DNA of 64,000 bases from Flagellimonas meridianipacifica (lineage in GTDB: Bacteria; Bacteroidota; Bacteroidia; Flavobacteriales; Flavobacteriaceae), in NCBI RefSeq assembly GCF_003001695.1, contig NZ_PVYX01000001.1, positions 496,001-560,000 of the forward strand. The letters run 5' to 3'. Numbering within the stretch: the stretch's first letter is position 1; every line of letters starts with the position of its first letter. Both the position numbers and the translations under genes were made by a program. Shown piece after piece: positions 35,186-64,000 of the stretch. The notes below the pieces were generated by a model. That model ran no database searches and was not told where the DNA came from. It worked only from the letters and a program-made list of their open reading frames with translations.

Positions 35186-35197
35186 TATCATTTTAGT

Positions 35198-38572: not shown

Positions 38573-38603
38573 GGGCGGGTTGTATATCAATCTGCCCTTT
38601 TTT
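38573..38603 (+). terminator. Intrinsic terminator of the small membrane protein gene
   Basis: GGGCGGGTTG (38573-38582) pairs with CAATCTGCCC (38588-38597), two G.U pairs included, around a TATAT loop. Six T's follow (38598-38603). It touches the stop codon of the convergent GH13 gene. Confidence 0.75.
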
Positions 38604-42776: not shown

Positions 42777-42831
42777 TTGTTAAGTATATGGTAGAAGTTA
42801 AGATTGTAGATTGAATTCTAAAGGGACAAAC

Positions 42832-43851: not shown

Positions 43852-44109
43852 TAGTTTATTCTCAAATCTTAAAAAGTAAATGGAAAAATAACCAAAACAG
43901 TGTATTAACAGTTCTTTTAGATAAACATTTAACAAAACACTAAGAAGAAATGAAATTCATCAATGAAGGTCGCTAAATCTAGTGATTGAAATAAAATAGT
44001 ATATTCGTAGGGTATTATTAATTTCGTTAAAAAGCCGCATTATTATTAAGATTTGATTAAATTAGGCCTTAAAGATTTATCAAACCAACATTTTCCCAAA
44101 CTTATCAAC

Positions 44110-44125
44110 ACGAAACCGTTTTCGT
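44110..44125. promoter_or_regulatory. LacI-type operator candidate upstream of susC
   Basis: ACGAAACC|GTTTTCGT is a 16-bp palindrome with one mismatched pair and the central CG step that LacI-family hinge helices insert into. It ends 24 bp upstream of the susC -33 element, a position that fits activation better than simple repression. The adjacent lacI gene is the obvious regulator; binding is inferred. Confidence 0.55.
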
Positions 44126-44149
44126 TAAACACTGAATAATGCTTAAATT

Positions 44150-44178
44150 TTGATTAACCTTTTTTTTATATATGTTTA
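44150..44178 (+). promoter_or_regulatory. susC promoter
   Basis: TTG (44150-44152), 18 nt, then TATGTTTA (44171-44178), a near match to the Bacteroidota consensus TTG-N17..19-TAnnTTTG. Transcription would start about 35 nt before the susC ATG. Confidence 0.6.
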
Positions 44179-44219
44179 ACACTTGAATTGAAATTAACTA
44201 AACTTAAAATTAATTATTT

Positions 44220-47282: not shown

Positions 47283-47297
47283 TAAAAAAAAATCAAA

Positions 47298-48845
47298 ATG
47301 ATGAGAAAAAAAATGTTTAAAAAAGGATTGGTCCAATCTCTAGGATTAGCATCGCTACTCCTGTTAGGCCAGTCCTGTACAGATTTGGAAGTTCCTCTTC
47401 AAGACTCAGTTTCTGTTGCCCAATCAGATGGTTCGTTTGGAGGTGTTGTGAGTGCTGCTAACTCCTTGGAGTCGCTTTACAATAATCTTGAAAACCTAAA
47501 TGCGCAAAATAACGAGTATGCCTGTATGGAGGTTGCAGCAAATAATGTTGCTGTTTTAACTAGAGGTGCTGACTGGGGTGATAATGGAGTATGGCGACAA
47601 TTGCATAATCATACTTGGAATCCTACCCAATTATATGTATTGAATTCTTGGAACAATCGTAACTCCCAGATTCTAGCAGCTACACAGCTTTTAGATCCCG
47701 CTAGCTCTGCTGGAAGAACAGCAACGCAAGTTGCACAGGCACAAGTAATAAGAGCCATAAATACATTCATGGTACTTAACTTCTTTGGCCAGGTTCCTTT
47801 TAGGGGAGTAAATGATGGTGTTGATGTTGATCCAGCTGTCTTGAGTGCACAAGAGGCATTTGATTTGATTATTTCAGATTTGGACGCAGCGATTTCCAGT
47901 GGAGATCTTCATACAGACGGGCCTGACGGTGACCTTTTCACTATTGGAGAGGCTGCTGCTCGCTTTATCAGAGCCAAGGTCAACTTAAATTCTGGTAGTA
48001 TTCTTGGTGCGGCACCAGCCGGAGCCATGGACGCGGTAATCGCAGATGTAGATGCTATTGAGGATTTTGGGTTCATGTTGGATGATGGCGATGGTCAATA
48101 CGGTTATTTTGATATCTGGGATTTATCTACCAATGATGAGGTAATCATGGCATTGGATACTGGTACTGGACAAAGGGTATTTAACATGATTCACCCTAAC
48201 CAAACAGGATGGAACGGTTTTGTAACCCTAACCGAGACCTTTAGGCTTCATGGCACCAATGATGTAGCTGATGATGCTAGGCTTGGATTGGACGGACCGG
48301 ATTTTAATGGCCTATCTACTGGATACCTGAGGGGACAACAGTTGGACGGTTCTGGAGCCCCACTTCAAGACAGACAAGGAACCGATTTGGTTTACGAAGA
48401 TGAGCTTTTAACCAGTTTGGAAATCAACAATGAGCGAAACGGAATACGCGTGGTAAAATATCCACAACGTGGAGATGATGGTTTTCCAAGCCCTACAAAT
48501 GATTTTGTATGGTTGAGATTTGCCGAGGCGCTACTTATGAGAGCTGAAGCGGGTCTTCGCGGTGGTACGGGTGCAGACCCAGTAGCGGACGTCAACCTGA
48601 TTAGAGAAAGAGCAGGTGTTCCTGCTTTGGGATCTATTACTCTGGAAGAACTCAATGACGAGATTACAAAAGAGTTAAACACTGAGGCTAATATTGCAGG
48701 AAACAGAGCGGTACAAATTCGCTTTGGCACTTTCGCAGATACATGGGAAATGAAAACTGTTCAAGATGAGTTCCGTAGGCTTTACCCAATACCAGCTACA
48801 GCACTTGGTTCTAACCCAAACTTGGTACAAAACGAAGGTTATTAA
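47298..48845 (+). CDS. RagB/SusD family nutrient-binding lipoprotein
   Basis: 515 residues with lipoprotein signal ending 'LLLLGQSC' (Cys27). The SusD pattern is a helical TPR-like scaffold: 'LNSWNNRNSQILAATQLL', 'QAQVIRAINTFMVLNFFGQVPF' (family helix), 'FIRAKVNLNSGSILG', and a C-terminal 'LRFAEALLMRAEAGLR...DVNLIRERAGVPAL...EFRRLYPIPATAL' order diagnostic of SusD. It caps the SusC barrel and binds the oligosaccharide at the cell surface. No SusE/F-type gene follows; an intrinsic terminator does. Confidence 0.95.
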   Translation: MMRKKMFKKGLVQSLGLASLLLLGQSCTDLEVPLQDSVSVAQSDGSFGGVVSAANSLESLYNNLENLNAQNNEYACMEVAANNVAVLTRGADWGDNGVWRQLHNHTWNPTQLYVLNSWNNRNSQILAATQLLDPASSAGRTATQVAQAQVIRAINTFMVLNFFGQVPFRGVNDGVDVDPAVLSAQEAFDLIISDLDAAISSGDLHTDGPDGDLFTIGEAAARFIRAKVNLNSGSILGAAPAGAMDAVIADVDAIEDFGFMLDDGDGQYGYFDIWDLSTNDEVIMALDTGTGQRVFNMIHPNQTGWNGFVTLTETFRLHGTNDVADDARLGLDGPDFNGLSTGYLRGQQLDGSGAPLQDRQGTDLVYEDELLTSLEINNERNGIRVVKYPQRGDDGFPSPTNDFVWLRFAEALLMRAEAGLRGGTGADPVADVNLIRERAGVPALGSITLEELNDEITKELNTEANIAGNRAVQIRFGTFADTWEMKTVQDEFRRLYPIPATALGSNPNLVQNEGY

Positions 48846-49001: not shown

Positions 49002-52000
49002 ATGTTATATAAATCAATCTTCCCGACATTACTTTTAACAACCGTTTTAATACTCTCCTGTAATACCAAAACGATAAAAGAAGATACCCATGAAAATACC
49101 TCTAAACTTTTCTCTCTGCTGAATAGCACCCAAACGGGAATCTCTTTTGAAAACACTGTAGAAAATGAAGAAGACTTCAACATTTTTCTGTATCGAAATT
49201 TTTACAACGGCGGAGGTGTTGCTATAGGAGATGTAAACAATGACGGTTTGGCAGATGTTTATTTGACCGCTAACAGGAAGCAAAACAAGCTATTCCTTAA
49301 CAAGGGGGATTTTACCTTCGAAGATATTTCGAATTCGGCGAGAGTGGAAGGCAACAAAGCTTGGTCCACCGGTGTGGTTTTTGTGGACATCAATTCCGAT
49401 GGTTTGCTCGATATCTATGTCTGCAATGCCGGAAACATTCAAGGAGACGATCAAAAAAATGAGCTTTTTATCAATAACGGAGACTTGACGTTCACAGAAA
49501 AAGCAGAAGAATACAACCTTGCGGATAGTGGTTTTACCACACATGCCGCATTTTTTGACTATGATAAAGACGGAGATTTAGATGTCTACATGTTGAACAA
49601 CAGCTTTATCCCTGTTGCCAGTTTAGGTTACGATAATAAAAGGGATGTTAGGGCAGAAGACTGGAATGTTATTGACGAAATTAAAGGTGGTGGAGATAAA
49701 CTATTACGAAACGACGGTGGCGTTTTCAAGGATGTAAGTGAAGAAGCCAACATTTATGGCAGTCTTATCGGTTTTGGTCTTGGAGTTACAGTAGGCGATG
49801 TTAACGAGGATTTTTATCCAGATATTTATGTGTCCAATGATTTTTTTGAACACGATTATCTCTACATAAACAATCAGGATGGGACCTTTACCGAAAGCAT
49901 AAAAGAATGGACGAATCATTTAAGTCTGTTCTCCATGGGAGCGGACATGGCTGATATAAATAATGATGGAAAGTCGGATATATTCGTAACGGATATGTTA
50001 CCGGAAAGTGATGAACGTCTGAAAACGACAACAACTTTTGAAACATATGATATTCATCAGCGTAAACTATTAAACGACTACTATTACCAGTTTATGCAAA
50101 ACACTTTACAGTTGAATCTGGGAGGTTTCTTTTCCGAAGTTGCGCATTACAGTGGTATTTCAAAAACGGATTGGAGCTGGGGCGCCTTGTTGTTTGATAT
50201 GGACAATGACGGTTATCGCGATGTGTTTGTTTGTAATGGTATTTATCACGATCTCACCAATCAAGATTTTATTGATTTCTTTGAAGATGTTACTAGACAA
50301 CAAACCGCTGTTTATGGGAACAAAGAGCAAAAGGATGCGGTAATCAACGCAATGCCTTCAAAACCAATTCCGAATTACGCATTTAAAAACAATCAAGATT
50401 TGACTTTTACCAACCGTTCGGAAGATTGGGGTCTGGCTACTCCTAGTTTTTCCAATGGCGCAGCCTATGGCGATTTGGACAATGATGGTGATTTAGATTT
50501 AGTGGTAAACAATGTAAATCAACAACTTTTTGTTTACAGAAACAACAGTGAAACGCTAGGCAACAATTACCTAAAAATTGAATTGAAAGGAGAAAATCCC
50601 AACACACGAGGAATAGGAAGTCTTGTTGAAATATTTTCAAATGAAGAAATCATTCAGCAAGAAATGATTCCTTCCAGAGGATTCCAATCATCAATTGATT
50701 ATATAATGACCATCGGCCTTGGGAAAAGTAGTCCAGATTCCTTAAGAATCATTTGGCCCAACGGAATGTATCAGACTTTGAAAAATGTAGAGCCCAACAC
50801 CCAGATTACATTGAATCAAACCGATGCTTCGCAAAAGTATTCCCCTTCGATAAAAGAAAAGACCGTATTACTAGCCGAAGTATCTTCAAAGCTACCCAAG
50901 CATATAGAGGATAAACATGTCGATTATGATTACGAAGGACTTATCACTAAAATGCTATCGCAAGAAGGCCCAACAGTTTCCATTGCTGACATTGATAATG
51001 ATGGGGATGAAGATGTTTTTATGGGAGGATCTAGGGGAGCGGCTGCCAAATTACTATTCCACCAAAACAATGGAAACTTAGAACTAACTTTTTCACAAGA
51101 TATCTTTCGAGAAGATAGAAGATATGAAGATACAGCTTCTGCATTTGTAGATATAGATGGTGATGGGGATATGGATCTTGTAGTGGCCTCAGGGGGAAAT
51201 ATTCCGGATAATCGCGTTTCCCCTAAAAACCGAATTTATGTAAATGATGGAAAGGGGAACTTCACTAAAAGTAATAATACAATTCCAAGTTTAAGCAACA
51301 ATGTATCTGTAATTGCCTCCTATGATTATGACGAAGATGGTGATCAAGATCTTTTTATAGGAAGTAGAAGCGTCCCTGGAATTTACGGTGTAAATCCAGA
51401 ACACTTATTTCTAGAGAATGATGGAGACGGAAACTTTTCGAACGTTACCGAAAACAAAGCCTTCCATCTTAAAAATATTGGAATGGTCACCGACGCCATT
51501 TGGACTGATTATGACGGTGATTCGAAAAAAGACCTAATTATCACCACCGATTGGGGCTCAATCAAAGTTTTCAAGAATAATGGAAGGAGATTAAGTCCAA
51601 GGGAAACCAGTTTGGATAGTTTGTCCGGTTGGTGGAACACAATTTATGCTGAAGACTTGGATGCAGATGGAGATATGGACTTCGTCCTCGGGAACCAAGG
51701 AAGCAATTTTAGCTATAAAGCGGATACCTCCTCTCCTTTAAAGATGTTTGTCAACGATTTTGATGATAATGGAACAATAGAGCAATTGTTCACAAAGAAT
51801 TATAATGGCAAAGATGTCCCGATAACTCTGAAAAGGGAACTAACCGCACAACTAAATTCCTTAAAAAAAGAAAATCTCAAGTTTTCAGATTTTGCTACCA
51901 AGAGTGTGGAAGAACTGATAGATACCACTATTTTGAAAAAATCCATTATTAAGGAAATAAATACAACACAAACTGTTGTCGCCCTTAATGAAGGAAATGG

Positions 52001-52340
52001 GCAGTTCAAGGTAGTAAGCCTACCAAAAGAGGTTCAGTTTTCCTGTGTTTGCGATGTGAACTGTACCGATATCAATGGCGATGGAAACTTGGATTTGATT
52101 ATTGGTGGAAACAACTATGACTTCAAACCACAATTCAGCAGATTGGATGCCAGCTATGGTGGCGTTCTTTTAGGTTCTGGTGATGGAAGCTTTGATTGGA
52201 CTCCTTATGACGAATCCGGATTTTATGTGAAAGGCGAGATTAAACATCTCTCCAAATTTAAAGACAAGAATGGTAAAGAGTTTTTATTCGTAGCCATTAA
52301 CAATGAAGCCCCAAGAGTATTTGAGTTTAATAGGGATTGA
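49002..52340 (+). CDS. VCBS/FG-GAP repeat lipoprotein with UnbV (ASPIC) domain, copy 1
   Basis: 1112 residues; lipobox LILSC (Cys20) predicts surface or periplasmic anchoring. Many FG-GAP calcium loops of the type DVNNDGLADVY, DINSDGLLDIY, DYDKDGDLDVY, DLDNDGDLDLV are spread over the chain, predicting integrin-like propellers. An ASPIC/UnbV domain is visible around residues 520-600 ('NYLKIELKGENPNTRGIGSLVEIF', '...GLGKSSPDSLRIIWPNG'), followed by more repeats. Such proteins are frequent next to SusCD genes in marine Bacteroidota, perhaps as substrate-binding or adhesion proteins; enzymatic activity is unknown. A collinear paralogue begins at 62311. A perfect 30-bp palindrome starts 11 nt after the stop. 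Confidence 0.9.
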   Translation: MLYKSIFPTLLLTTVLILSCNTKTIKEDTHENTSKLFSLLNSTQTGISFENTVENEEDFNIFLYRNFYNGGGVAIGDVNNDGLADVYLTANRKQNKLFLNKGDFTFEDISNSARVEGNKAWSTGVVFVDINSDGLLDIYVCNAGNIQGDDQKNELFINNGDLTFTEKAEEYNLADSGFTTHAAFFDYDKDGDLDVYMLNNSFIPVASLGYDNKRDVRAEDWNVIDEIKGGGDKLLRNDGGVFKDVSEEANIYGSLIGFGLGVTVGDVNEDFYPDIYVSNDFFEHDYLYINNQDGTFTESIKEWTNHLSLFSMGADMADINNDGKSDIFVTDMLPESDERLKTTTTFETYDIHQRKLLNDYYYQFMQNTLQLNLGGFFSEVAHYSGISKTDWSWGALLFDMDNDGYRDVFVCNGIYHDLTNQDFIDFFEDVTRQQTAVYGNKEQKDAVINAMPSKPIPNYAFKNNQDLTFTNRSEDWGLATPSFSNGAAYGDLDNDGDLDLVVNNVNQQLFVYRNNSETLGNNYLKIELKGENPNTRGIGSLVEIFSNEEIIQQEMIPSRGFQSSIDYIMTIGLGKSSPDSLRIIWPNGMYQTLKNVEPNTQITLNQTDASQKYSPSIKEKTVLLAEVSSKLPKHIEDKHVDYDYEGLITKMLSQEGPTVSIADIDNDGDEDVFMGGSRGAAAKLLFHQNNGNLELTFSQDIFREDRRYEDTASAFVDIDGDGDMDLVVASGGNIPDNRVSPKNRIYVNDGKGNFTKSNNTIPSLSNNVSVIASYDYDEDGDQDLFIGSRSVPGIYGVNPEHLFLENDGDGNFSNVTENKAFHLKNIGMVTDAIWTDYDGDSKKDLIITTDWGSIKVFKNNGRRLSPRETSLDSLSGWWNTIYAEDLDADGDMDFVLGNQGSNFSYKADTSSPLKMFVNDFDDNGTIEQLFTKNYNGKDVPITLKRELTAQLNSLKKENLKFSDFATKSVEELIDTTILKKSIIKEINTTQTVVALNEGNGQFKVVSLPKEVQFSCVCDVNCTDINGDGNLDLIIGGNNYDFKPQFSRLDASYGGVLLGSGDGSFDWTPYDESGFYVKGEIKHLSKFKDKNGKEFLFVAINNEAPRVFEFNRD

Positions 52341-52350
52341 TGTAGAAAGG

Positions 52351-52380
52351 AATAAAAATGTAAACGTTTACATTTTTATT
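52351..52380. promoter_or_regulatory. Perfect 30-bp palindrome, LacI-type operator for yeiH-lacI
   Basis: All 30 bases form a perfect inverted repeat with central CG; the core is AATGTAAACGTTTACATT (52357-52374). The same 18-bp core recurs at 54942-54959. A -7-like TAGTTTTA (52383-52390) lies 3 nt further and the gene for the YeiH-type protein starts at 52404, so a bound regulator would cover the -33 region. The LacI-family gene of the same operon is the likely binder (autoregulation). A role as terminator of the upstream gene is possible but no T-run longer than five follows the stem. Confidence 0.8.
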
Positions 52381-52403
52381 TGTAGTTTTACATCCGTTCG
52401 CAA

Positions 52404-53336
52404 ATGCTCTCTAAAGTAAGTACCTACATATTATGTATCGCCGTGCTCTTAGGCACCCTAATGGGTTACATCTCTCCCGCCCTAGCTTTGGCAGCAGGTA
52501 TGGTTTCGGGAATCTTTAAAATTGCTAACGACGATTTTGTTCAAAAAAGTAAAAAATTCCAAAAACTTCTCTTACAACTATCCGTGGTTGGCCTTGGTTT
52601 TGGAATACATATGCAGCAGGCTGTGGAAGTTGGCTCGAACAGCTTTTTTATAACATTGATTACGATTGTCTGCACATTCATCATAGCATTTGCTATTGGA
52701 AAAATTCTCAAATCAGAGCGTATAACCACAATTTTGGTAGCCTCAGGAACAGCAATTTGTGGAGGCAGCGCTATTGCCGCAGTAAGCCCGAGCCTAAAGG
52801 CAGACTCATCACAAACATCAATTTCGTTGGCCATTGTATTTCTTCTCAATGCAATTGCCCTGTTTATTTTTCCATATATAGGCCATTATTTTGGTTTGGA
52901 CCAAAGTCAGTTTGGAACGTGGAGCGCCATTGCTATCCATGATACTAGTTCCGTAGTGGGGGCTGCCGAGGTTTACGGCAATGAGGCTTTGAATATTGCC
53001 ACAACTACTAAACTCGTTAGAACATTATGGATCATTCCGTTGGTTTTAATAATTTCTTTTGGTTCCAATTCAAAGGAAAGATTTGCCTTTCCTTGGTTTA
53101 TCTTCGGATTTATTGGTGCTATGCTTATTAGTTCATATGTCCCAGAAGCAGGTCAAGTAAGTGAAAGTATTGTTTGGATTGCTAGGAAGGCCCTTATCTT
53201 CACTCTATTCTTAATTGGAATGCAAATCAACATTGCCCAACTAAAAAAATTGGGCTTTAACATTCTTATAGTAGGTATCACCACCTGGATTGTGTTAGGC
53301 GCAATTTCCCTTTTCTACGTTTTAAATTATTTGTAA
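52404..53336 (+). CDS. YeiH-type (UPF0324, PSE family) putative sulfate/sulfite exporter
   Basis: 310 residues, about ten hydrophobic helices. 'LLQLSVVGLGFGIHM', 'VASGTAICGGSAIAAVSPSLKADSSQTSIS' and 'GTWSAIAIHDTSSVVGAAEVYG' are the family's conserved segments. YeiH/PSE proteins have been proposed to export sulfite or sulfate and appear in several sulfonate-degradation gene clusters. Here it heads a two-gene operon with a LacI-type regulator (8-nt gap) and sits beside a sulfonate monooxygenase cluster, so discharge of sulfite or sulfate is a reasonable role; direct evidence is lacking. Confidence 0.88.
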   Translation: MLSKVSTYILCIAVLLGTLMGYISPALALAAGMVSGIFKIANDDFVQKSKKFQKLLLQLSVVGLGFGIHMQQAVEVGSNSFFITLITIVCTFIIAFAIGKILKSERITTILVASGTAICGGSAIAAVSPSLKADSSQTSISLAIVFLLNAIALFIFPYIGHYFGLDQSQFGTWSAIAIHDTSSVVGAAEVYGNEALNIATTTKLVRTLWIIPLVLIISFGSNSKERFAFPWFIFGFIGAMLISSYVPEAGQVSESIVWIARKALIFTLFLIGMQINIAQLKKLGFNILIVGITTWIVLGAISLFYVLNYL

Positions 53337-53344
53337 AATACATC

Positions 53345-54352
53345 ATGGGAGGTATAAAGGAAATAGCAAAAATGACCGGGGTTTCCCTCGCCACTGTTTC
53401 CCGCGTCTTCAACAATAGCGCCTTGGTCTCTCCCAAAACACGTGAAAAAGTCTTAAAAGCGGCAAAAGATATCGACTACAGGCCAAATGTAATGGCCGCC
53501 GCCCTGCGCAGTGGAAAAAGTAAAATCATCGGGGTTATCGTTCCAGAGGTTAATAACTCTTTCTTCAGCGATATCATCAATGGTATTGAAGGTGTTGTAA
53601 GTGATTCGGGTTTTAACATCATCATTTCACAAACCCATGAAAAACAGGAAAGAGAAAATGCCGCACTAAACTCACTTTTGGAACTCAATGTAGATGGTAT
53701 ATTGATGTCCATTTCAAAGGAAACAAAAGATTACACCCAGATTCAAAAAATAATTGATAGCAAAACGCCTATTGTTTTTTTTGACCGGCGCCCTACACTT
53801 GATGCTATCAATGCAGTTCTACTTAATAATTACCTAGGGGCATATATAGCAACTGAACATCTTATCGATATGGACTGCGAAAATATCTTGCATATCGCGG
53901 GCAACCCCGATGTAAGTATTTTTGAAGAAAGAAAGAAAGGTTTCGTAGCTGCGGCTCAAAAACATCGTGTCCAGTATTTGGTGAACCATCTTCCCAATAT
54001 CAAATCAAACCCAGAAGAAGATTTAAACAGTCTAAAAGACATATTAAAAAAGCACCCTAATATAGATGGTATTTTTGCCTATGGTGATGAAATGGCCATC
54101 CACTTGCTCAATTTGTTGAACACCTTAAAGATTGAAGTTCCCAAACAGGTAAAATTAATAGGTTTTGGCAACGCCAACTTTAGTGCACTGACACAACCTA
54201 GTTTAAGCTCAATAGATCAAGAAAGCTCTCTAATGGGTGAGCTTTCGGCGAACCTGCTACTTCAAAATCTGAAGAGAAAAACAAAACCCACAGCAAAAGT
54301 GTTATCCCCGAAACTCATTCGGCGAGAGTCCACCAAAAACCTTGATCAATAG
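53345..54352 (+). CDS. LacI family regulator of the sulfonate gene set
   Basis: 335 residues. N-terminal HTH 'GIKEIAKMTGVSLATVSRVFNNSALVS', hinge helix 'YRPNVMAAALRSGKSK' with the Leu that opens a central CG step, then the ligand-binding domain from 'IIGVIVPEVNNSFFSDIINGIEGV'. LacI proteins respond mostly to sugars, which supports a sugar-like inducer here. Two identical operator cores flank this gene's own promoter and the divergent FMN-reductase/aldo-keto reductase promoters. Its last 7 bp overlap the end of the convergent FMN reductase gene. Confidence 0.93.
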   Translation: MGGIKEIAKMTGVSLATVSRVFNNSALVSPKTREKVLKAAKDIDYRPNVMAAALRSGKSKIIGVIVPEVNNSFFSDIINGIEGVVSDSGFNIIISQTHEKQERENAALNSLLELNVDGILMSISKETKDYTQIQKIIDSKTPIVFFDRRPTLDAINAVLLNNYLGAYIATEHLIDMDCENILHIAGNPDVSIFEERKKGFVAAAQKHRVQYLVNHLPNIKSNPEEDLNSLKDILKKHPNIDGIFAYGDEMAIHLLNLLNTLKIEVPKQVKLIGFGNANFSALTQPSLSSIDQESSLMGELSANLLLQNLKRKTKPTAKVLSPKLIRRESTKNLDQ

Positions 54353-54888
54353 TTAAGAAACTGTTGAATTTGCTTTTGAAGGGTCTCTATGGCTTCATCA
54401 TTTACTGAGTTATCCTCCGAATTGAGCATTTTATAAATAGAAGAGATTGGATTTTTATTAGGATGGACATGAATTCCTAAATGATTCAATACTTCTGCCA
54501 AATGATCCATCCCTCTAAGATTTCCAGCCCTGCCTGAAGCAATACCAGTGATACAAGCTTTTTTATCGGCAAAACTTGTTTTATACTCCCTAACGGACAT
54601 TGAATCCAAGAGAAGTTTAACAATTCCTGGATAACTTCCGTTGTACTCCGGAATAAAAAACCAAAACTTACCCGCTGGTATAAAGTATTCGTCTTGAATA
54701 TGTTGAACTACTTCGGGTTGTTCTGAATCTTTGTACATAGACACGTTGACCACATTTCCCGCAAATTCGGAGATGTCCAGAAACTTTACTTCCTCATTTG
54801 CCATTTTCTTCAATTCTTCAAATACGTATTTGGCAAAGTGTATGGTCTTATTATTCTTTCGATTTGATCCCGAGATAATCGTTATCAT
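54346..54888 (-). CDS. SsuE-like NAD(P)H-dependent FMN reductase
   Basis: 180 residues of the flavodoxin-like FMN reductase family. 'ITIISGSNRKNNKTIHFAKYV' is the FMN phosphate loop (SGSNRKNN), 'WFFIPEYNGSYPGIVKLLLD' is the second FMN-binding motif (PEYNGSxPG), and 'ACITGIASGRAGNLRGMDHLAEVL' completes the fold. It supplies reduced FMN. Divergent from, and sharing an operator with, the monooxygenase operon, it is the natural electron partner of that SsuD-family enzyme, as SsuE is for SsuD and SmoA for SmoC; azo-, quinone- or chromate reductase activity is an alternative. Confidence 0.88.
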   Translation of the reverse strand: MITIISGSNRKNNKTIHFAKYVFEELKKMANEEVKFLDISEFAGNVVNVSMYKDSEQPEVVQHIQDEYFIPAGKFWFFIPEYNGSYPGIVKLLLDSMSVREYKTSFADKKACITGIASGRAGNLRGMDHLAEVLNHLGIHVHPNKNPISSIYKMLNSEDNSVNDEAIETLQKQIQQFLNY

Positions 54889-54941
54889 TTTCGTTACGGT
54901 TTTATTAGATGCAATTTATGGGCAATATTATGAAATTTTAT

Positions 54942-54959
54942 AATGTAAACGTTTACATT
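54942..54959. promoter_or_regulatory. 18-bp palindromic operator in the divergent FMN reductase / aldo-keto reductase region
   Basis: Perfect palindrome AATGTAAACGTTTACATT, identical to the core of the operator at 52357-52374. It lies 53 nt before the reductase start on the minus strand and 44 nt before the aldo/keto reductase ATG, so one regulator can control both. A downstream TAAATTTG (54975-54982) fully matches the -7 consensus, placing the operator over the expected -33 region. Confidence 0.85.
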
Positions 54960-54974
54960 TTTGGTTTAATTGGT

Positions 54975-54982
54975 TAAATTTG
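54975..54982 (+). promoter_or_regulatory. -7 element of the sulfonate catabolic operon
   Basis: TAAATTTG matches TAnnTTTG exactly, 21 nt before the ATG at 55004. No canonical TTG lies 17-19 nt upstream; that stretch is taken by the operator. Confidence 0.5.
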
Positions 54983-55003
54983 ACTCCAATTGAGAATTAT
55001 ACA

Positions 55004-55900
55004 ATGTATATGGCCTTAACCAAAGAAACCATTTCTCCCTTAATTATTGGTACCATGCGATTGGGTACTTGGGGAAGCCAGTTATCCACTTCCGAATATG
55101 AAAAATTCATCGAAGGATGTCTGGAACTCGGTCTTAAGGACTTTGACCATGCTGATATTTATGGACATTACACTACCGAAGAAGATTTTGGAAACGTACT
55201 GAAATCCAGAAATGATTTAAGGGAAAAAATGCGAATTACCACCAAATGTGGTATTAAGCTGATTTCACATAACAGGCCTAATCACAACGTCAAATCGTAT
55301 GACCTCTCCCCAAAACATATTTTGGAATCTGTGGATTTGTCATTGGAGAATTTAAAAACAGATTACATTGACGTCTTGTTGTTGCATAGACCTGATTATC
55401 TGTTTAATCCGCATGAGATAGCAGAGGTTTTTGAAAAACTAAAACAATCTGGAAAGGTATTGGAGTTTGGGGTATCAAACTTTTCACCTTCACAGTTTGA
55501 TTTGTTGCATGCCATCACGCCTTTGGTAACCAACCAGGTAGAGATTTCAGTTTTACAAAGAAGTGCATTTGAAGATGGAACCTTGGACCAATGTCTGAAA
55601 CACAATGTCATTCCAACGGCATGGTCTCCTCTGGGAGGAGGAAGCTTGTTTGGAAAGACCACGTCTCAGGAGATGGAGGCAATTAAAAATGTTCTGAATA
55701 CACTGGGTGAAAAATATGATGCTGCTCATGATCAGATTTTATATGCCTGGCTCAGAAAACATCCAGCAGGCATCATTCCCGTTTTAGGGACTTCAAAATT
55801 GGAACGAATACAAACAGCCCACAAAGCACTTGATATCAACCTTACCCATGAAGAGTGGTACATGCTTTGGGAAGCTGCAATAGGAAGAGAAATTGATTAA
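55004..55900 (+). CDS. Aldo/keto reductase (YdhF/SmoB-like)
   Basis: 298 residues from the ATG at 55004; a TTG at 54980 and an ATG at 55010 are alternatives. AKR barrel with the catalytic tetrad: Asp and Tyr in 'FDHADIYGHYT', Lys in 'RITTKCGI', His in 'DVLLLHRPD'. 'TNQVEISVLQ' and 'AWSPLGGG' near the NADPH site and 'IIPVLGTSKLERI' are typical. AKRs reduce aldehydes. Next to a sulfonate monooxygenase, whose product is an aldehyde, it could reduce 6-oxo-glucose to glucose as SmoB does; another aldehyde is possible. The monooxygenase gene starts 10 nt downstream. Confidence 0.9.
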   Translation: MYMALTKETISPLIIGTMRLGTWGSQLSTSEYEKFIEGCLELGLKDFDHADIYGHYTTEEDFGNVLKSRNDLREKMRITTKCGIKLISHNRPNHNVKSYDLSPKHILESVDLSLENLKTDYIDVLLLHRPDYLFNPHEIAEVFEKLKQSGKVLEFGVSNFSPSQFDLLHAITPLVTNQVEISVLQRSAFEDGTLDQCLKHNVIPTAWSPLGGGSLFGKTTSQEMEAIKNVLNTLGEKYDAAHDQILYAWLRKHPAGIIPVLGTSKLERIQTAHKALDINLTHEEWYMLWEAAIGREID

Positions 55901-55910
55901 AAATAAAATA

Positions 55911-57071
55911 ATGGATAATTCAAAAATAACAATTCGATCACCTCATCTCGAAGGAGCTGAAGTTTCTTGGTTTGCACCTATTTGTAATGGTGATGACAGA
56001 TATTTGGGTGAAAGAAGCATGGACTACAAAAGTACATTTGAAAATGCTTCAGAAATCTTGTTGACCGCCGATAAAAATGGTTTTAGAAATATTCTGTGCC
56101 CGTCGTCCTATCAAGTAGGTCAGGACACACTGCCTTTTGTTTCTGCAGTGGCGCCAATGACCCAACAAATCAATATGCTGGCCGCTGTTCGTTGTGGAGA
56201 AATCCATCCAGCTATGCTCGGCAGGACCCTATCCACGATTGACCATATTCTTAAAGGTCGATTTACCATCAATATTATTTCATCTCCGCTTCCTGGTGAA
56301 GAAAGCATGTCCTCTGAAGACCGTTACCAGCGATCCAGGGAGGTCATTGAAATCCTAAAACAGGGATGGACCCAAGATGAAATAGACTATCAAGGTCAAT
56401 TCTATAGCATGAAAGTCCCTTCACTGCCAATGAAATCCTATCAAAATGGTGGCCCATTGCTATACTTTGGGGGATATTCACCAGCTGCTGTTGAGCTATG
56501 TGCTGAACATTGTGATGTCTACTTGATGTGGCCAGAGACTGAGGAAAACCTTAGAAAGCTTATGGAAAACATGAGTGCGAAAGCTGCAACTTATGGCCGA
56601 AAAGTGGATTTTGGACTTCGTGTTCATGTTGTGGTTAGAGAAACTGAGGAAGAAGCACGGGAATATGCAGATAGCATTGTGTCCAAACTCGAGGTAGAAC
56701 AAGGAAAAGAGATACGGGAAAGGGCTTTGGACGCAAAGTCCTACGGGGTAAGTAGACAGGCACAGATGAGGGAGCTTTCCGAGGATGATGGTTACGTAGA
56801 ACCTCATATGTGGACTGGTATTGGTAGAGGACGTTCAGGTTGTGGAGCTGCCTTGGTTGGAAACCCTGACCAAATTGTTGAGAAGCTCAATAGATATATG
56901 GATATGGGTATTCGAGCTTTTATCTTCTCTGGGTATCCCCATAAAGAAGAGTGTGAGCGTTTTGCCAAGTTGGTATTGCCCAAACTAAAAACCTTCTCCA
57001 TGCCAATAGTACAAGGAAAAGTAGGCGCTGAAGAACCTTCTACTCCCCTTGCCGCTGGAGTGAGAATATAG
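55911..57071 (+). CDS. SsuD-family FMNH2-dependent sulfonate monooxygenase (SmoC-like candidate)
   Basis: 386 residues from ATG 55911. Bacterial luciferase-like (LLM) barrel with alkanesulfonate monooxygenase features: 'NIISSPLPGEES', 'YFGGYSPAAVELCAEHCDVYLMWPE', the sulfonate-binding RxH in 'GLRVHVVVRETEEEA' (R237, H239), and the C-terminal active-site loop 'GIGRGRSGCGAALVG' containing R308, equivalent to the mobile-loop Arg of SsuD. Such enzymes use FMNH2 and O2 to split a C-S bond, giving sulfite and an aldehyde. The substrate is unproven; neighbours argue for a sulfosugar. It belongs to a five-gene operon with the reductase, a symporter, sulfite dehydrogenase and cytochrome. Confidence 0.9.
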   Translation: MDNSKITIRSPHLEGAEVSWFAPICNGDDRYLGERSMDYKSTFENASEILLTADKNGFRNILCPSSYQVGQDTLPFVSAVAPMTQQINMLAAVRCGEIHPAMLGRTLSTIDHILKGRFTINIISSPLPGEESMSSEDRYQRSREVIEILKQGWTQDEIDYQGQFYSMKVPSLPMKSYQNGGPLLYFGGYSPAAVELCAEHCDVYLMWPETEENLRKLMENMSAKAATYGRKVDFGLRVHVVVRETEEEAREYADSIVSKLEVEQGKEIRERALDAKSYGVSRQAQMRELSEDDGYVEPHMWTGIGRGRSGCGAALVGNPDQIVEKLNRYMDMGIRAFIFSGYPHKEECERFAKLVLPKLKTFSMPIVQGKVGAEEPSTPLAAGVRI

Positions 57072-57222
57072 CAGATATCTAGGGCTTTTATTGAAAACAA
57101 AATAGTATATTGGGTAGTTAAATAGTATTTCCATAACCGACCTTTTTCCTATACCTATGATTAAACATCTTTGTAATTTGGATTCATGTGCTATGGAACT
57201 AACTTCTATAACCACCTAGTAT

Positions 57223-58767
57223 ATGATTGATTTACTTATTGTAAGTGCCTATTTTATTATCGTTTTTGTAACTGCGATTACGGGCAGAACCTCTAAAGAA
57301 GCTACGACCGAGGAATATTTTTTAAGTGGAAGAAACTTGAGATGGCCCTCAATTGCCTTTTCAACAATTGCCACTAATGTTCAAGGGTATCAGTTTCTTG
57401 GTTTCATGGGTTCCGCCTATCTCTATGGATTGGCTCAGGCCAACTTTGAAATAAATGCCATTCAAGGTCTTTTGTTGGCTGCGTTCATCTTTGTTCCCAT
57501 GTATTTACGGGAAAAAATCATTACGATTACGCAGTTTATTAAAACCAGATTGGGTAGTACGGTTGCCCTTTTGTATTCCGGCTCGAACATATTGCTATTC
57601 TCGACAATCACCTTAGGTGCGGCTCTCTTCTGGGGGGCTTACTCAGTTGATTTGGTATTTGGTGATTACCTATCGTTCATCCATCAAGATAGATTGATTC
57701 GGATAGCGATTCTCATTCTTTTTCTAGGGCTATTCTCAGCTACCTATACCTATTTTGGCGGGTTGGCGGCAGTGGTACGTACCGATGTTATCCAGTTCGC
57801 TATTTTATTGACTGGAGGTGTTGTGGTAATGTTTATTGCGATTTATCACCTAGGCGGATGGTCCCAGCTCTATGAAAAGACAGGGCATTTGATGCACTTA
57901 CATTTACCAGCTGATCACGATACATTACCTTGGATACATATTTTTGGAGCTTTCCTATTGAATATTAATTACTGGTGTGCCAATCAATCCGTTGTTCAAC
58001 GTTCGTTGGCCGCCAAAAGTCTGAAAGATGTTCAAATCGGTCTCATGGTAGGTGGACTTATGAAGTATTTCATGGCTGCCATTATCATCTTGCCAGGTAT
58101 AGCACTCGTAGGAATTTTGGGTGATAACGGCCTTCCAGAACCAGACGCAGCTTTTCCCTATTTGGTAAATACATATCTACCAGTAGGAGTAAAAGGTCTC
58201 ATTCTTTGTGCCCTGTTCGCTTCATTGATGAGTACGGTAGATTCTACCTTTAATTCTCTGGCTACATTATGGTCCATCGACATTTACAAAGTGTATGTGA
58301 ACAAGAATGCCTCGGACCAACAAGTGGTTCGTTCTGGGAAAAGAGCCATATTGATTTCATTCATATCTGGTGTTATTATCGGAATTGTGCTCCTATATCT
58401 CAAGTTCCAAGATCCTGGTGCGGCCTTTACCCATACGTTGAACCAGCTTAGGTACTTCATTAACTGCGGTATCGTAGTACTTATTTCAGCGGCTGCGTTC
58501 TTGGCATTTCCTAAACACAGAGTGGCACTGTTTGGCTTCTTGGCAACCGTTCCCCTACAATTCTTCTTTTTGGAGTTTTTCCCCGATATGAACTACTTCA
58601 TAAGGGCTATGTGGGTGATTTTGATTGGATTTACCATTATTTGGATAGGGTCTAGAACCGGTTTTGTTAGAGATAAGCTCAGGGCCGAACCAGCTTCTCC
58701 CATGTTAGGTAAAGCTGGTATTGGTATGCTGTTATCCCTTATCGCATTGCACATCATATTCCATTAG
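57223..58767 (+). CDS. Sodium:solute symporter (SSS family), cluster transporter 1
   Basis: 514 residues, about 13-14 hydrophobic helices. SSS signs: 'YFLSGRNLRWPSIAFSTIATNVQGYQFLGFMGSAYL' at the N-terminus, 'TYTYFGGLAAVVRTDVIQFAILLTGG', and 'ALFASLMSTVDSTFNSLATLWSIDIYK' (sodium-site Ser/Thr). It imports an organic solute with Na+. It lies in the putative desulfonation operon (151 nt after the monooxygenase, 6 nt before the sulfite dehydrogenase), so it is the best candidate for inner-membrane uptake of the sulfonate. Confidence 0.92.
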   Translation: MIDLLIVSAYFIIVFVTAITGRTSKEATTEEYFLSGRNLRWPSIAFSTIATNVQGYQFLGFMGSAYLYGLAQANFEINAIQGLLLAAFIFVPMYLREKIITITQFIKTRLGSTVALLYSGSNILLFSTITLGAALFWGAYSVDLVFGDYLSFIHQDRLIRIAILILFLGLFSATYTYFGGLAAVVRTDVIQFAILLTGGVVVMFIAIYHLGGWSQLYEKTGHLMHLHLPADHDTLPWIHIFGAFLLNINYWCANQSVVQRSLAAKSLKDVQIGLMVGGLMKYFMAAIIILPGIALVGILGDNGLPEPDAAFPYLVNTYLPVGVKGLILCALFASLMSTVDSTFNSLATLWSIDIYKVYVNKNASDQQVVRSGKRAILISFISGVIIGIVLLYLKFQDPGAAFTHTLNQLRYFINCGIVVLISAAAFLAFPKHRVALFGFLATVPLQFFFLEFFPDMNYFIRAMWVILIGFTIIWIGSRTGFVRDKLRAEPASPMLGKAGIGMLLSLIALHIIFH

Positions 58768-58773
58768 ATTTAG

Positions 58774-59997
58774 ATGAATAGAAGGCGTTTTATATCCCAA
58801 ACCTCATTAACCTCATTCGCCACTATATTAGGTGCAGATATTGTTTTTGGAAACAATTTACCTAAAGGGTATACTCCTTTAGCCCTGCAAGACACGGACC
58901 CTTTCAAATTATTCGACAAGGATTCAGGAATGTCCGTGCTCAACAACAAGCCCTGGAACATTGAGGCCAAAGCCCACTTATTGGATGATAAAGTAACTCC
59001 AAACAAGTACATGTTCATTCGCAACAATGGGCTGATACCTGAAAATATTGATGCCAAGAGTTGGAAATTGACCATCGATGGAGAATCTGTTTCAAAACCA
59101 AAAACCTACACCCTAGATGAGTTAAAGTCCAAATTCCAACACCATACCTATCAACTGACTTTGGAATGCGGAGGTAATGGCAGAAGCGAGTTCAATCCCC
59201 CTGCAAAGGGAAATCAATGGACAGTGGGAGCTGTTTCTTGTGCCAATTGGACCGGAGTTCGTTTAAAAGATGTTTTACAAGATGTAGGTTTCAAAGAAAA
59301 TGCGGTTTACATAGGATATCATGCAGCTGATATTCATCTTAGCCGGAATCCTGAGAAGGAACCTATTTCCCGTGGAGTACCTATGGCAAAAGCATTGCAA
59401 GACGAAACCTTGTTAGCATTTCAAATGAATGGAAAAGACATTCCCCTGGTACATGGTTATCCTCTTCGATTGATTGCAGGAGGTTGGCCAGCATCCGCTT
59501 CTGGTAAATGGGTTAACCGACTTAGCATTCGGGACAAAGTCCATGATGGAGCTAAAATGACAGGGACCTCATATAGGGTACCGTGCGAACCGGTTGCTCC
59601 TGGGGAAAAAGTGGCTGATGAAGATATGTGCATTATCGAATCCATGCCAGTTAAATCTTTGATTACCTATCCAAAGTCTGGAGCCATCATCAAAAAAGGA
59701 CAAGCACTGAACATTCGAGGGCATGCTTGGGCGGGAGAGCTTGAAGTTCAAAGTATGGAGTACTCCATAGATTTCGGCTCCACCTGGCATTCGTGTTCGC
59801 TGCAAAAACCTGCCAATCGATTGGCATGGCAAAATTTTAGTGCTTCCATCAACCATTTCCCAAAAAAAGGATATTATGAGGTTTGGGCCCGAGCCAAAGA
59901 TTCCAATGGAAAAAGCCAACCCATGCTTTTACCAGGATGGAACCCAAAAGGCTATTTAAACAATGCTTGTCATCGAATTGCAATAAAAGTTTCCTGA
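58774..59997 (+). CDS. Tat-exported molybdopterin sulfite dehydrogenase (SorA/SoxC-like)
   Basis: 407 residues. MNRRRFISQTSLTSFATI is a twin-arginine-type signal. The molybdopterin domain contains 'YQLTLECGGNGRSEFNPPAKGNQW' with the Mo-ligand C132, followed by 'GAVSCANWTGVRLKDVL' and 'DIPLVHGYPLRLIAGGW' and the C-terminal Mo-co dimerisation domain ('IKKGQALNIRGHAWAGELEVQSMEYSID'). Family reaction: sulfite + H2O to sulfate, passing electrons to a cytochrome c. A monohaem cytochrome gene follows 1 nt after. It would detoxify and use the sulfite released by the SsuD-like enzyme. Confidence 0.92.
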   Translation: MNRRRFISQTSLTSFATILGADIVFGNNLPKGYTPLALQDTDPFKLFDKDSGMSVLNNKPWNIEAKAHLLDDKVTPNKYMFIRNNGLIPENIDAKSWKLTIDGESVSKPKTYTLDELKSKFQHHTYQLTLECGGNGRSEFNPPAKGNQWTVGAVSCANWTGVRLKDVLQDVGFKENAVYIGYHAADIHLSRNPEKEPISRGVPMAKALQDETLLAFQMNGKDIPLVHGYPLRLIAGGWPASASGKWVNRLSIRDKVHDGAKMTGTSYRVPCEPVAPGEKVADEDMCIIESMPVKSLITYPKSGAIIKKGQALNIRGHAWAGELEVQSMEYSIDFGSTWHSCSLQKPANRLAWQNFSASINHFPKKGYYEVWARAKDSNGKSQPMLLPGWNPKGYLNNACHRIAIKVS

Positions 59998-59998
59998 T

Positions 59999-60469
59999 AT
60001 GTCTTTTGAGAATCGTTTTAAAAGTCAGGTTGAAACACTTTACAGGAAATTGATTATCGGTTTCAGTATCATCTTGCTTTGCATTTTTTCTTTGCTGTAC
60101 GTAATTCTGAACCCTTCCGTTTTTGAAAGACAACCTGATAAAACAGATTTGGTCGATATTCAAGAAGTGGAGGAAGATTTGATTGAAAATGGAATCCATG
60201 TTGCGACGGGCTTTGTTGATGGTGATGGATTGACAGAAGTTATTCAAAATTGTACTAACTGCCATTCTGCCAAATTGGTCACCCAAAATAGAATGTCCAA
60301 AGAAGGTTGGGTGGCTACCATTCGTTGGATGCAGGAAACCCAGAACTTATGGGACCTAGGTAATAACGAAGAGATTATTGTCAACTATCTGGCTACAAAT
60401 TATGCCCCTGACAAGAAAGGACGTCGTGATATTCTGACCGATATTGATTGGTATACTTTGGAAGAGTAG
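59999..60469 (+). CDS. Membrane-anchored monohaem cytochrome c, partner of the sulfite dehydrogenase
   Basis: 156 residues. An N-terminal helix (residues ~18-38, LIIGFSIILLCIFSLLYVIL) anchors a small c-type domain. The haem site CTNCH is at C85/C88/H89; a Met in 'QNRMSKEGW' (M99) or one in 'IRWMQETQN' is the likely distal ligand. As in SorAB-type enzymes, it should accept electrons from the Mo enzyme and pass them to the respiratory chain. It is last in the operon and converges with the second symporter gene (3-nt gap). Confidence 0.88.
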   Translation: MSFENRFKSQVETLYRKLIIGFSIILLCIFSLLYVILNPSVFERQPDKTDLVDIQEVEEDLIENGIHVATGFVDGDGLTEVIQNCTNCHSAKLVTQNRMSKEGWVATIRWMQETQNLWDLGNNEEIIVNYLATNYAPDKKGRRDILTDIDWYTLEE

Positions 60470-62310: not shown

Positions 62311-64000
62311 ATGGGAAGATTTTGTTGTTTTTTATGCCTAATGGGGATTTTGTTTTCGGGGTGCAAACAAAAACAGGAAAAGGAAAAACTCTTCAAAAAA
62401 AGAAGCGCTTCGGAGACCGGAGTTTCTTTCAAAAATCAATTGACTGACACTCCCGAGCTCAATATCCTGACCTATTTGTATTTCTACAACGGTGCAGGAG
62501 TGGCCGCCGGGGATTTTAACAACGATGGGCTACCGGATTTATATTTTACGTCAAATCAAGAGTCTGACCGTCTTTATTTGAACAATGGAAACCTTAATTT
62601 CACTGATATTACAGAAGCTTCCGGCATTGATAATTCGGATGAATGGACCACAGGGGTTACCCAAGTTGATATAAACAACGACGGTTGGTTGGATATTTAT
62701 GTCTGTAAGGTGGGGAACTACCAAACCTTAAAGGGCAAAAATCTGTTGTATGTGAATCAAGGGGCAGATAACAAGGGGATTCCCACCTTCAAAGAAGAAG
62801 CAGATAAGTATAACCTTGATTTCTCGGGATTCTCTACCCAAGCTGCTTTTTTTGACTACGATTTGGATGGTGATTTGGATATGTATCTCCTCAATCATTC
62901 AGTAAAACCAAACCGGACCTATGGTAAAGGAAGCAAGCGTAAACAAATCGATTCTCTATCCGGAGATATCCTTTTCAGAAATGATGATGGAAAGTTCATG
63001 GATGTATCCCAAGAAGCAGGCATTTTTCAGGGATCTATTGGTTATGGTTTAGGTATCGGGATTAGTGATGTCAATAATGACGGTTATCCAGATGTTTATA
63101 TTGGAAATGATTTTTTTGAAAATGATTATTTCTATTTCAATCAAGGGAATGGTACTTTCAAGGAAACCATTTCTTCCAACGAAAAAGTATTAGGCCATAC
63201 CTCCCATTTTTCCATGGGGAATACCATAGCTGATATTAACAATGATGGATGGACAGACATTATCTCTTTAGATATGCTCCCAGAAAACTTGGAAACCTAT
63301 AAAACTTCGGGTCTGGAATATGCTTTTCCAACATATGACCAATATTTAAGGAATGGATTTGCTCCTCAATACATGCAAAACACACTGCATTTGAACAGAA
63401 AGGGGCAAACTTTCAATGAAATTGCCCACATGAGCGGAGTGGCTGCCACAGAGTGGTCCTGGGGTGCCTTGTTTGCCGATTTTGACAATGACGGTCATAA
63501 AGACCTTTTTGTTTCAAATGGGATTAAAGGAGCTACCAATGACATGGATTTCATCAGCTTCATTGCCAATGAAAAAATCCAAAAGGCCATAGAGAGCGGT
63601 ATGACACAAAAGGAGATGAGCTTTATTGGTGAACTTCCAGAAAAAAAAGTGCCCAACTATTTCTTTAAAAATAATGGAGATTTGACTTTCAGTGACGTGA
63701 CCAACACTTGGAGTGAAAGTGAAGATTCATTTAGCCATGGTTGTGCCTATGTCGATTTGGATAATGATGGAGATTTGGATGTTGTGGTGAACAATGTCAA
63801 TGAAGAAGCCTACATTTTGGAAAATACCCAGAAGGACAATAATCGTTCTCTCTCCTTATCGTTCGAAGGAACTACAAAAAACAGATTTGGTGTTGGGGTA
63901 AAGGTCAAGGCTTACATAAAAGGGTCTACGTTGGTTGGAGAAAGCTTTCCCACAAAAGGGTATCTCTCGTCAACGACCAATACGATTCATTTAGGTTTGG
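62311..64000 (+). CDS. VCBS/FG-GAP repeat lipoprotein with UnbV (ASPIC) domain, copy 2 (truncated at window end)
   Basis: Open from the ATG at 62311 to the last base (563 codons read, no stop). Signal MGRFCCFLCLMGILFSGC gives lipobox Cys18. It has calcium-loop FG-GAP repeats such as DFNNDGLPDLY, DINNDGWLDIY, DYDLDGDLDMY, DVNNDGYPDVY and DLDNDGDLDVV, and is collinear with the lipoprotein at 49002, sharing blocks like 'AAFFDYDxDGDLDxYxLN' and 'FSMGxxxADINNDG'. The C-terminal part, including the end of the UnbV domain, lies beyond the window. The two paralogues bracket the sulfonate genes. Confidence 0.88.
   Translation, partial: MGRFCCFLCLMGILFSGCKQKQEKEKLFKKRSASETGVSFKNQLTDTPELNILTYLYFYNGAGVAAGDFNNDGLPDLYFTSNQESDRLYLNNGNLNFTDITEASGIDNSDEWTTGVTQVDINNDGWLDIYVCKVGNYQTLKGKNLLYVNQGADNKGIPTFKEEADKYNLDFSGFSTQAAFFDYDLDGDLDMYLLNHSVKPNRTYGKGSKRKQIDSLSGDILFRNDDGKFMDVSQEAGIFQGSIGYGLGIGISDVNNDGYPDVYIGNDFFENDYFYFNQGNGTFKETISSNEKVLGHTSHFSMGNTIADINNDGWTDIISLDMLPENLETYKTSGLEYAFPTYDQYLRNGFAPQYMQNTLHLNRKGQTFNEIAHMSGVAATEWSWGALFADFDNDGHKDLFVSNGIKGATNDMDFISFIANEKIQKAIESGMTQKEMSFIGELPEKKVPNYFFKNNGDLTFSDVTNTWSESEDSFSHGCAYVDLDNDGDLDVVVNNVNEEAYILENTQKDNNRSLSLSFEGTTKNRFGVGVKVKAYIKGSTLVGESFPTKGYLSSTTNTIHLGL

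Follow-up and report, generated by a model that had tools for sequence, protein, structure and literature searches.

A probable LacI-controlled sulfo-SMO regulon in the flavobacterium Flagellimonas meridianipacifica

The gene cluster at positions 52341-60469 of a 64,000-nt stretch of the Flagellimonas meridianipacifica genome (the window; the whole genome has 4.38 Mb) is, judging from its sequence, very probably a flavobacterial variant of a LacI-controlled sulfoquinovose monooxygenase (sulfo-SMO) regulon that would turn sulfoquinovose (SQ), a sulfosugar of plants and algae, into sulfite and glucose. An earlier sequence-only reading had proposed this pathway, and our analysis supports it: a SmoC-type monooxygenase, a symporter resembling sodium/glucose transporters and a sugar-type LacI all fit a sulfosugar, which we infer to be SQ. 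What was computed directly is the gene content, the close relationship between the monooxygenase and SmoC-type enzymes, the operators and the synteny. The genes claimed for the cluster are intact open reading frames (ORFs), each with a fitting family match, in the order yeiH, lacI, flavin mononucleotide (FMN) reductase (divergent), aldo/keto reductase (AKR), luciferase-like monooxygenase (LLM), sodium symporter, molybdenum enzyme and cytochrome c:

52357..52374, no strand: putative LacI operator AATGTAAACGTTTACATT, palindrome upstream of yeiH-lacI
52404..53336, + strand: YeiH-type membrane protein, predicted sulfite/sulfate exporter (PF03601, 9.7e-57)
53345..54352, + strand: LacI-family regulator, presumed binder of the two operators (PF00356 and Peripla_BP domains)
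54346..54888, - strand: NAD(P)H:FMN reductase, which presumably supplies FMNH2 (FMN_red, PF03358, 4.1e-20)
54942..54959, no strand: second putative LacI operator AATGTAAACGTTTACATT, in the divergent FMN reductase/AKR promoter
55004..55900, + strand: AKR, predicted 6-dehydroglucose reductase in the SmoB/SquF role (Aldo_ket_red, PF00248, 4.4e-58)
55911..57071, + strand: predicted SmoC-type flavin-dependent sulfoquinovose monooxygenase (Bac_luciferase, 2.3e-55)
57223..58767, + strand: SGLT-type sodium/solute symporter, predicted sulfosugar importer (SSF, 2.6e-46)
58774..59997, + strand: molybdenum sulfite dehydrogenase, SorA-like, predicted to be exported by twin-arginine translocation (Oxidored_molyb, Mo-co_dimer)
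59999..60469, + strand: c-type cytochrome, which presumably accepts electrons from the sulfite dehydrogenase (one CxxCH, CTNCH)

In the pathway that we propose, the symporter would import SQ to the cytoplasm, the FMN reductase would provide FMNH2, and the monooxygenase with O2 would split the C-S bond to give sulfite and 6-dehydroglucose, which the AKR would convert to glucose. YeiH would carry the sulfite out, and the molybdenum enzyme would oxidise it to sulfate in the periplasm, with the electrons passing to the adjacent cytochrome c. LacI is expected to repress yeiH-lacI, the FMN reductase and the AKR-monooxygenase-symporter-(sulfite dehydrogenase-cytochrome) genes through the two identical operators, and SQ or one of its derivatives would lift the repression. 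All the reactions, the direction of each transport step, the inducer and the co-transcription of symporter, sulfite dehydrogenase and cytochrome with the rest are predictions. For comparison, a contig scan yielded at least 588 confirmed relatives of the monooxygenase, the best 80 of which make up, with the window, a synteny set of 81 loci (loci are cited by L number); many of the contigs end early, which lowers the counts.

The monooxygenase and its substrate

In a search of the PDB, the monooxygenase was 59 and 58% identical to 7oh2 and 7olf (501 and 489 bits), which we take to be SmoC of Agrobacterium and Rhizobium, and the next families were MsuD (7jv3, 228 bits) and SsuD (203 bits). It reaches 273.3 bits with the curated SsuD model, whose cut-off is 518.2, so that it falls outside SsuD, and it is the single PF00296 match (E <= 0.001) in the genome. 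In a careful tree with a midpoint root, made of 39 rows picked by hand from 102 (63 were left out), the 37 SmoC/SquD-type rows split from SsuD plus MsuD at 100/100; a quick tree of all 102 rows gave the same superclade, drawn open, with a support of 96. The group of 7oh2 and 7olf in the 39-row tree consists of five alphaproteobacterial rows (100/100), including the enzymes of Ruegeria and Rhizobium SL42. The sequence-only reading had named grouping of the monooxygenase with a characterised enzyme for non-sugar sulfonates as the result that would speak against it; instead, the monooxygenase groups with the SmoC/SquD-type enzymes, apart from SsuD and MsuD. The Ruegeria and Rhizobium genes are found in clusters of LLM, AKR and flavin reductase that also hold a Gfo/Idh/MocA gene, contexts that fit the description of Roseobacter sulfo-SMO clusters in the part of PMC10755693 consulted, where these clusters carry GH188 sulfoquinovosidases (SQases); a Marinovum cluster is similar, its genes being labelled putative dehydrogenase and oxidoreductase. 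Certain Novosphingobium and Agrobacterium species are given as validated SQ users via sulfo-SMO in the consulted part of PMC13372026.

The residue pattern also argues for SQ activity in the window clade. A list of 69 positions is common to 77 window-type rows (at least 95% conserved) and the five alphaproteobacterial rows, and 64 of the 69 differ in SsuD, gaps counting as different. Within them lie the loops CPSSYQVGQD, FGGYSP, YLMWPE and SGYPH. A related Bacteroidota group, B2, has SGYPL for SGYPH and FGG(I/T) for FGGY, both in 7/7 rows, and Novosphingobium retains the His of SGYPH with Leu for the Tyr of FGGY; the SGYPH His is also present in SsuD and MsuD.

The symporter has bacterial and human sodium/glucose cotransporters as its closest solved structures. 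Its residues Q57, E76, N247 and K281 are kept in 58/58 partner symporters (window included) and correspond to four of the five vSGLT residues that we assume to contact the sugar (Q69, E88, N260, K294 and Q428; both this ligand list and the +30 numbering offset are assumptions of ours), the fifth, Gln428, being Asn407 in 57/58. In 57/58 as well, Arg410 replaces Thr431 of vSGLT, and an arginine next to the hexose site would suit an anionic sugar. The closest solved relative, 2xq2/3dh4, presumably a galactose transporter, would also be in keeping with a different sulfosugar being processed by the same machinery, for example sulfofucose (6-deoxy-6-sulfo-D-galactose) or another 6-sulfo-hexose from which the AKR would yield the matching hexose. 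We consider this quite unlikely, as the 69 positions common with the alphaproteobacterial SmoC set include loops near the active site. Bacterial catabolism of sulfofucose does exist, by another pathway, and this sugar is called rare (both in the consulted part of PMC12421959), whereas SQ production is put on the gigaton scale (PMC13372026, part consulted).

A non-sugar sulfonate, such as a taurine derivative, an alkanesulfonate or a sulfonolipid head group, has little probability as the substrate of the window enzyme, although this may hold for B2. The B2 enzymes are 52-55% identical to that of the window, and two of them (that of Spirosoma, L130, and that of L141) have SusC/D, an amidohydrolase and an amino-acid permease as neighbours, contexts which suggest that the superfamily has probably diversified in Bacteroidota. 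However, the SGYPH and FGGY residues altered in B2 are those that the window enzyme shares with SmoC, and both the sodium/glucose-like symporter and the AKR fit a sugar. The B2 loci, found on Spirosoma and Emticicia plasmids and in other genomes, resemble our cluster in their related LLM, in having SusC/D or a symporter nearby and, in two of them (L130 and L143), a sulfite dehydrogenase with cytochrome c; they differ in the altered residues, in the amidohydrolase and permease of L130 and L141, and in that no AKR was seen, whether in the annotation of L123 and L130 or in a similarity comparison of L141-L145 with the window AKR. The order SusC, SusD, amidohydrolase, LLM, amino-acid permease (L130:1408-12381, L141:1359-10766), with cytochrome c and a sulfite dehydrogenase annotated as soxC next in L130, is perhaps that of a locus for N-acyl sulfonate (N-acyltaurine-like) utilisation.

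Sulfur scavenging under sulfate limitation, as performed by SsuEADCB, rather than use of the substrate for carbon, is very improbable. The enzyme superfamily and the flavin-reductase principle are shared with SsuEADCB and MsuED, but the window enzyme belongs to a separate deep branch, there is no ATP-binding cassette (ABC) importer among the cluster genes, the sugar-type LacI has an operator of its own, and predicted sulfite disposal (YeiH, the SorA-like enzyme and the cytochrome) is present.

The two other enzymes of the core are less telling. The AKR is 42% identical to 7bby, which we take to be SmoB, 41% to YdhF of E. coli and 36-37% to the Novosphingobium AKRs, with 218 bits for 7bby vs 216.5-227.5 for YdhF-like chains. 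SmoB and the Novosphingobium AKRs are themselves just 39-41% identical, hence what the three lineages have in common is an AKR subfamily and not a close orthologue; an AKR tree did not settle SmoB orthology and was rejected as proof of it. A genome is counted as sulfo-SMO-positive in PMC13372026 (part consulted) if it encodes SmoB as well as SmoC, with hits inside a 10-ORF window; here, an AKR (PF00248) lies directly upstream of the monooxygenase. The FMN reductase, described at first as SsuE-like, does belong to the FMN_red family, but it is distant from SsuE (SsuE model 1.6e-4, MsuE 1.2e-7, both far below the cut-offs). It presumably takes the SmoA role as a member of a different family, thus supplying the flavin reductase of a sulfo-SMO system, a component that, according to the consulted part of PMC9594981, not every sulfo-SMO cluster has.

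Several points weigh against the assignment to sulfo-SMO. The window clade sits among other Bacteroidota in the 39-row tree, outside a set (94/97, drawn open) that joins alphaproteobacterial SmoC, Novosphingobium SquD, Chloroflexota, Abditibacteriota and B2, and its SQ activity is therefore not bracketed by characterised enzymes; B2, with its different gene contexts and altered residues, groups within this set. The naming of 7oh2 and 7olf as SmoC is our own, the depositors' labels being 'Alkanesulfonate monooxygenase' and 'Methanesulfonate sulfonatase', and the PDB label of 7bby likewise reads otherwise. SmoB and YdhF are about equally close to the AKR, so that its sequence by itself does not identify it as SmoB, and an AKR occurs in 29/81 loci. 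Finally, neither a GH188-like SQase (best match 28.8 bits) nor a close relative of YihQ was found in the genome, whose sole GH31 protein is 22% identical to YihQ and has alpha-glucosidases as its nearest solved structures; both were rejected as SQases on these grounds. A GH31 or GH188 SQase, which would act on SQ glycosides, was thus not found in this genome, although such an enzyme is not needed for free SQ.

Regulator and operators

The matching operators of the sequence-only reading proved to be real, in the form of an 18-bp palindrome, AATGTAAACGTTTACATT, present at both positions listed above. Its 16-mer core occurs exactly at these two places alone in the genome, with no further place at one mismatch and three at two mismatches; a reversed-pattern control gave two places with up to two mismatches, about equal to the three 2-mismatch sites. 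Since 7/100 shuffles of the window also reach at least two sites at up to three mismatches, the count within the window is by itself modest evidence, and the case for the operators is carried by their exactness, genome-wide rarity and conservation. Both are found in L020-L023 and L029, and also, with the same gene order, in the same-genus genome G609 (L138); L067 has one, and L030 and L024 each have a single site, with a change. Downstream of the second operator there is a TAnnTTTG box (54975-54982), which we take to be a Bacteroidota -7 element; none was found behind the first operator in 52331-52410. The TTG at 54980, given as the AKR start in the ORF list, overlaps this box, and the likely start is the ATG at 55004 or 55010. 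A palindrome scan found no operator in the 151-bp gap ahead of the symporter, so LacI control of the symporter would depend on read-through. The best curated models for the LacI protein are of the sugar type, RbsR first, all below cut-off.

The SusC/SusD pair at 44220-48845 was left out of the regulon for want of an upstream operator and because of its maltose-type neighbours, namely a second LacI (42832-43935), a GH65 protein closest to maltose phosphorylase and a GH13 protein. The region 38602-48845 of the window, in which LacI, GH65 and GH13 are divergent from SusC/SusD, is likely a maltodextrin module. By eye, a ACGAAACCGTTTTCGT site can be seen ahead of susC, under the threshold of the palindrome scan. 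SusC/SusD stays beside the cluster in L020-L023, and a SusD piece lies at the edge of L138.

Sulfite disposal and the source of sulfoquinovose

The exporter and the molybdenum enzyme are named by likeness only, their scores being below the curated cut-offs: YeiH has 126.5 bits with TIGR00698 (cut-off 232.6), and the molybdenum enzyme 227.7 bits with the SorA model (cut-off 600) and 182 bits with the sulfite oxidase 1sox. In the alignment with 1sox the Cys region is kept and the RNH of 1sox is RNN, and the N-terminus carries a twin-arginine motif (MNRRRFISQ); the enzyme would work like SorA without being classed as SorA. The cytochrome matches the SorB model with 25.9 bits (7.9e-6; cut-off 93). 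A SorA relative (60% identity) is found near a B2 monooxygenase in L143 and the soxC-annotated gene near another in Spirosoma, so that Bacteroidota sulfonate oxygenases are repeatedly accompanied by sulfite oxidation.

The source of SQ may be free SQ, a new SQase, or a glycoside that is desulfonated before hydrolysis. In the last case, intact sulfoquinovosyl glycerol would be imported, desulfonated and reduced to glucosyl glycerol, which an alpha-glucosidase would split into glucose and glycerol. No SQase would be needed, which would account for the failure to find either known SQase family in the genome itself or in the fetched stretch, variable in length, of 78/80 relatives (GH188-like proteins were seen in two loci and a YihQ-like one in one, all in Chloroflexota). 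It would also explain why L024 and L029 have a canonical-looking GH13 alpha-glucosidase behind the operator, in line with the FMN reductase, and L093 has one inside the monooxygenase operon, and why there are glycerol genes near the monooxygenase elsewhere. These glycerol genes also favour the main SQ reading, since sulfoquinovosyl glycerol as a source would lead one to expect them: a GlpD-like (glycerol-3-phosphate dehydrogenase-like) gene adjoins the monooxygenase upstream on the opposite strand in 3/80 loci (L041, L062, L076) and lies a few genes away in four more (L059, L068, L073, L074), and in L062 and L076 a glycerol kinase stands behind it. SmoC, however, acts on free SQ, and we regard this order of events as unlikely.

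The GH13 proteins resemble oligo-1,6-glucosidases, and the FMN reductase, LacI or monooxygenase is their neighbour (L024:6772-8418, L029:6771-8417, L030:6198-7838, L093:4028-5692), with the motif NHDFPR in the first three and NHDNPR in L093; the nearest solved structure is an oligo-1,6-glucosidase for L024 and a sucrose isomerase for L093. They were also considered as a new SQase and rejected, as their catalytic motifs look canonical. The Chloroflexota loci L069 and L070 are SmoC-type with GH188-like proteins 36-37% identical, L069 having the YihQ-like GH31 as well. In the window, a glycerol kinase and MIP channel pair is found at 33689-35926, about 16 kb or more ahead of the sulfo cluster.

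Distribution and related systems

The best 80 of the at least 588 relatives are nearly all from Bacteroidota (Flavobacteriaceae, Saprospiraceae, Flammeovirgaceae and others), mostly metagenome bins, apart from three Chloroflexota, one Abditibacteriota and one unassigned record. Among 397 sampled genomes of the family, 22 (own included) match the monooxygenase at E <= 1e-60, any subtype; in a sample of the phylum, 15/395 match at 1e-30, and of the seven with at least 52% identity, three (own included) have the SmoC-type loops and four are of type B2. The symporter family is present in 60/81 loci, a few being of another symporter type, and 29 loci have an AKR, which in 26 of them directly adjoins the monooxygenase (exceptions L051, L070 and L097). 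The other genes are less frequent: LacI in 9/81, YeiH in 7/81, the FMN reductase in 7/81 (window included; it is either transcribed away from the AKR or placed ahead of the monooxygenase operon), and the SorA-like enzyme and the cytochrome in 6/81 each (window included), with the cytochrome next to the molybdenum enzyme. L020-L023 retain the order of the window, and L020, L022 and L023 keep all eight genes while L021 is without sulfite dehydrogenase and cytochrome; all eight are also conserved in G609. L024, from Flavobacterium sp. ASW18X, carries AKR, monooxygenase and symporter together with a SorA-like gene.

The cluster had been described as a distinct, Bacteroidota-style version, which stands in part. 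Pairs of AKR with monooxygenase and of monooxygenase with symporter are seen repeatedly in Bacteroidota; YeiH is not special, since the Ruegeria and Rhizobium clusters have a 'putative sulfate exporter family' gene, and the sulfite dehydrogenase is found in just 6/81 loci, many of them clipped by contig ends. The sulfo-SMO/sulfo-ASMO systems of Agrobacterium, Rhizobium and Roseobacter (SmoABC) share with the window a SmoC-type enzyme of 55-60% identity, an adjacent AKR and a flavin reductase, and the Ruegeria and Rhizobium systems also an exporter annotated as of the sulfate-exporter family. In contrast, they have a tripartite ATP-independent periplasmic (TRAP) or ABC importer where the window has a sodium symporter, a 'flavin reductase family' protein in place of FMN_red, and GntR instead of LacI; the AKR is just 38-42% identical, the SorA-like enzyme and cytochrome are added here, and no GH188 or GH31 SQase was found here. 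The Novosphingobium SquD/SquF locus (L129) likewise holds LLM, AKR, LacI and a TonB-dependent receptor together, in a cluster of TonB, alpha-glucosidase, LacI, AKR, LLM, glycerol-3-phosphate dehydrogenase and glycerol kinase genes. The LLMs of such clusters are 45-47% identical to that of the window; the locus differs by the in-line alpha-glucosidase, 43% identical to YihQ, and by the glycerol genes, and symporter, exporter and sulfite dehydrogenase are not annotated in this stretch.

Other genes accompany the cluster or its relatives. Large FG-GAP-type proteins lie on both flanks in the window (49002-52340, with a UnbV_ASPIC domain, and 62311-64000, recognised by its sequence), and similar ones in L022 and L138. 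Genes for a xylose isomerase and a kinase, which follow the cytochrome in L020 and the symporter in L021, were judged to be a separate sugar module. In four flavobacterial loci (L058, L075, L078, L088), a glycerate kinase and a GntP-family permease are directly upstream of, and in line with, monooxygenase and symporter, and glycerate may be an aglycone or co-substrate there. A GH78 alpha-L-rhamnosidase is divergent from AKR-monooxygenase-symporter in L027 (3832-6576) and L028 (6222-8984), and a CehA/McbA-like hydrolase (below cut-off) lies behind the symporter in L026-L028. The Saprospiraceae loci L054, L060 and L061 have a sulfatase plus 5'-nucleotidase protein upstream of the monooxygenase (domains seen in L054).

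In the parts consulted, sulfo-SMO is placed in alpha- and beta-proteobacteria by Table 1 of PMC12890257 and by PMC9594981 ('largely'), to which the 2026 survey PMC13372026 adds Actinomycetota and Spirochaetota. We found no description of a Bacteroidota sulfo-SMO cluster in the literature searched, most subscription papers and supplementary tables being outside it. The main-text parts consulted of PMC13372026 and PMC12890257 do not contain 'Bacteroidota' (Fig. 7B of the former may show Bacteroidota), 'Bacteroidetes' occurs once in the former, in a reference, and 'Bacteroid-' is absent from the consulted part of PMC10755693. The core chemistry is known from proteobacteria, and it is the transporter, the regulator and the sulfite disposal that differ here. 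Flavobacteriaceae, Saprospiraceae and Flammeovirgaceae are degraders of algal matter; a branch in these families would add a little-recognised aerobic sink in which SQ is converted fully to glucose and sulfate, and the symporter is a candidate for a new class of sulfosugar transporter.

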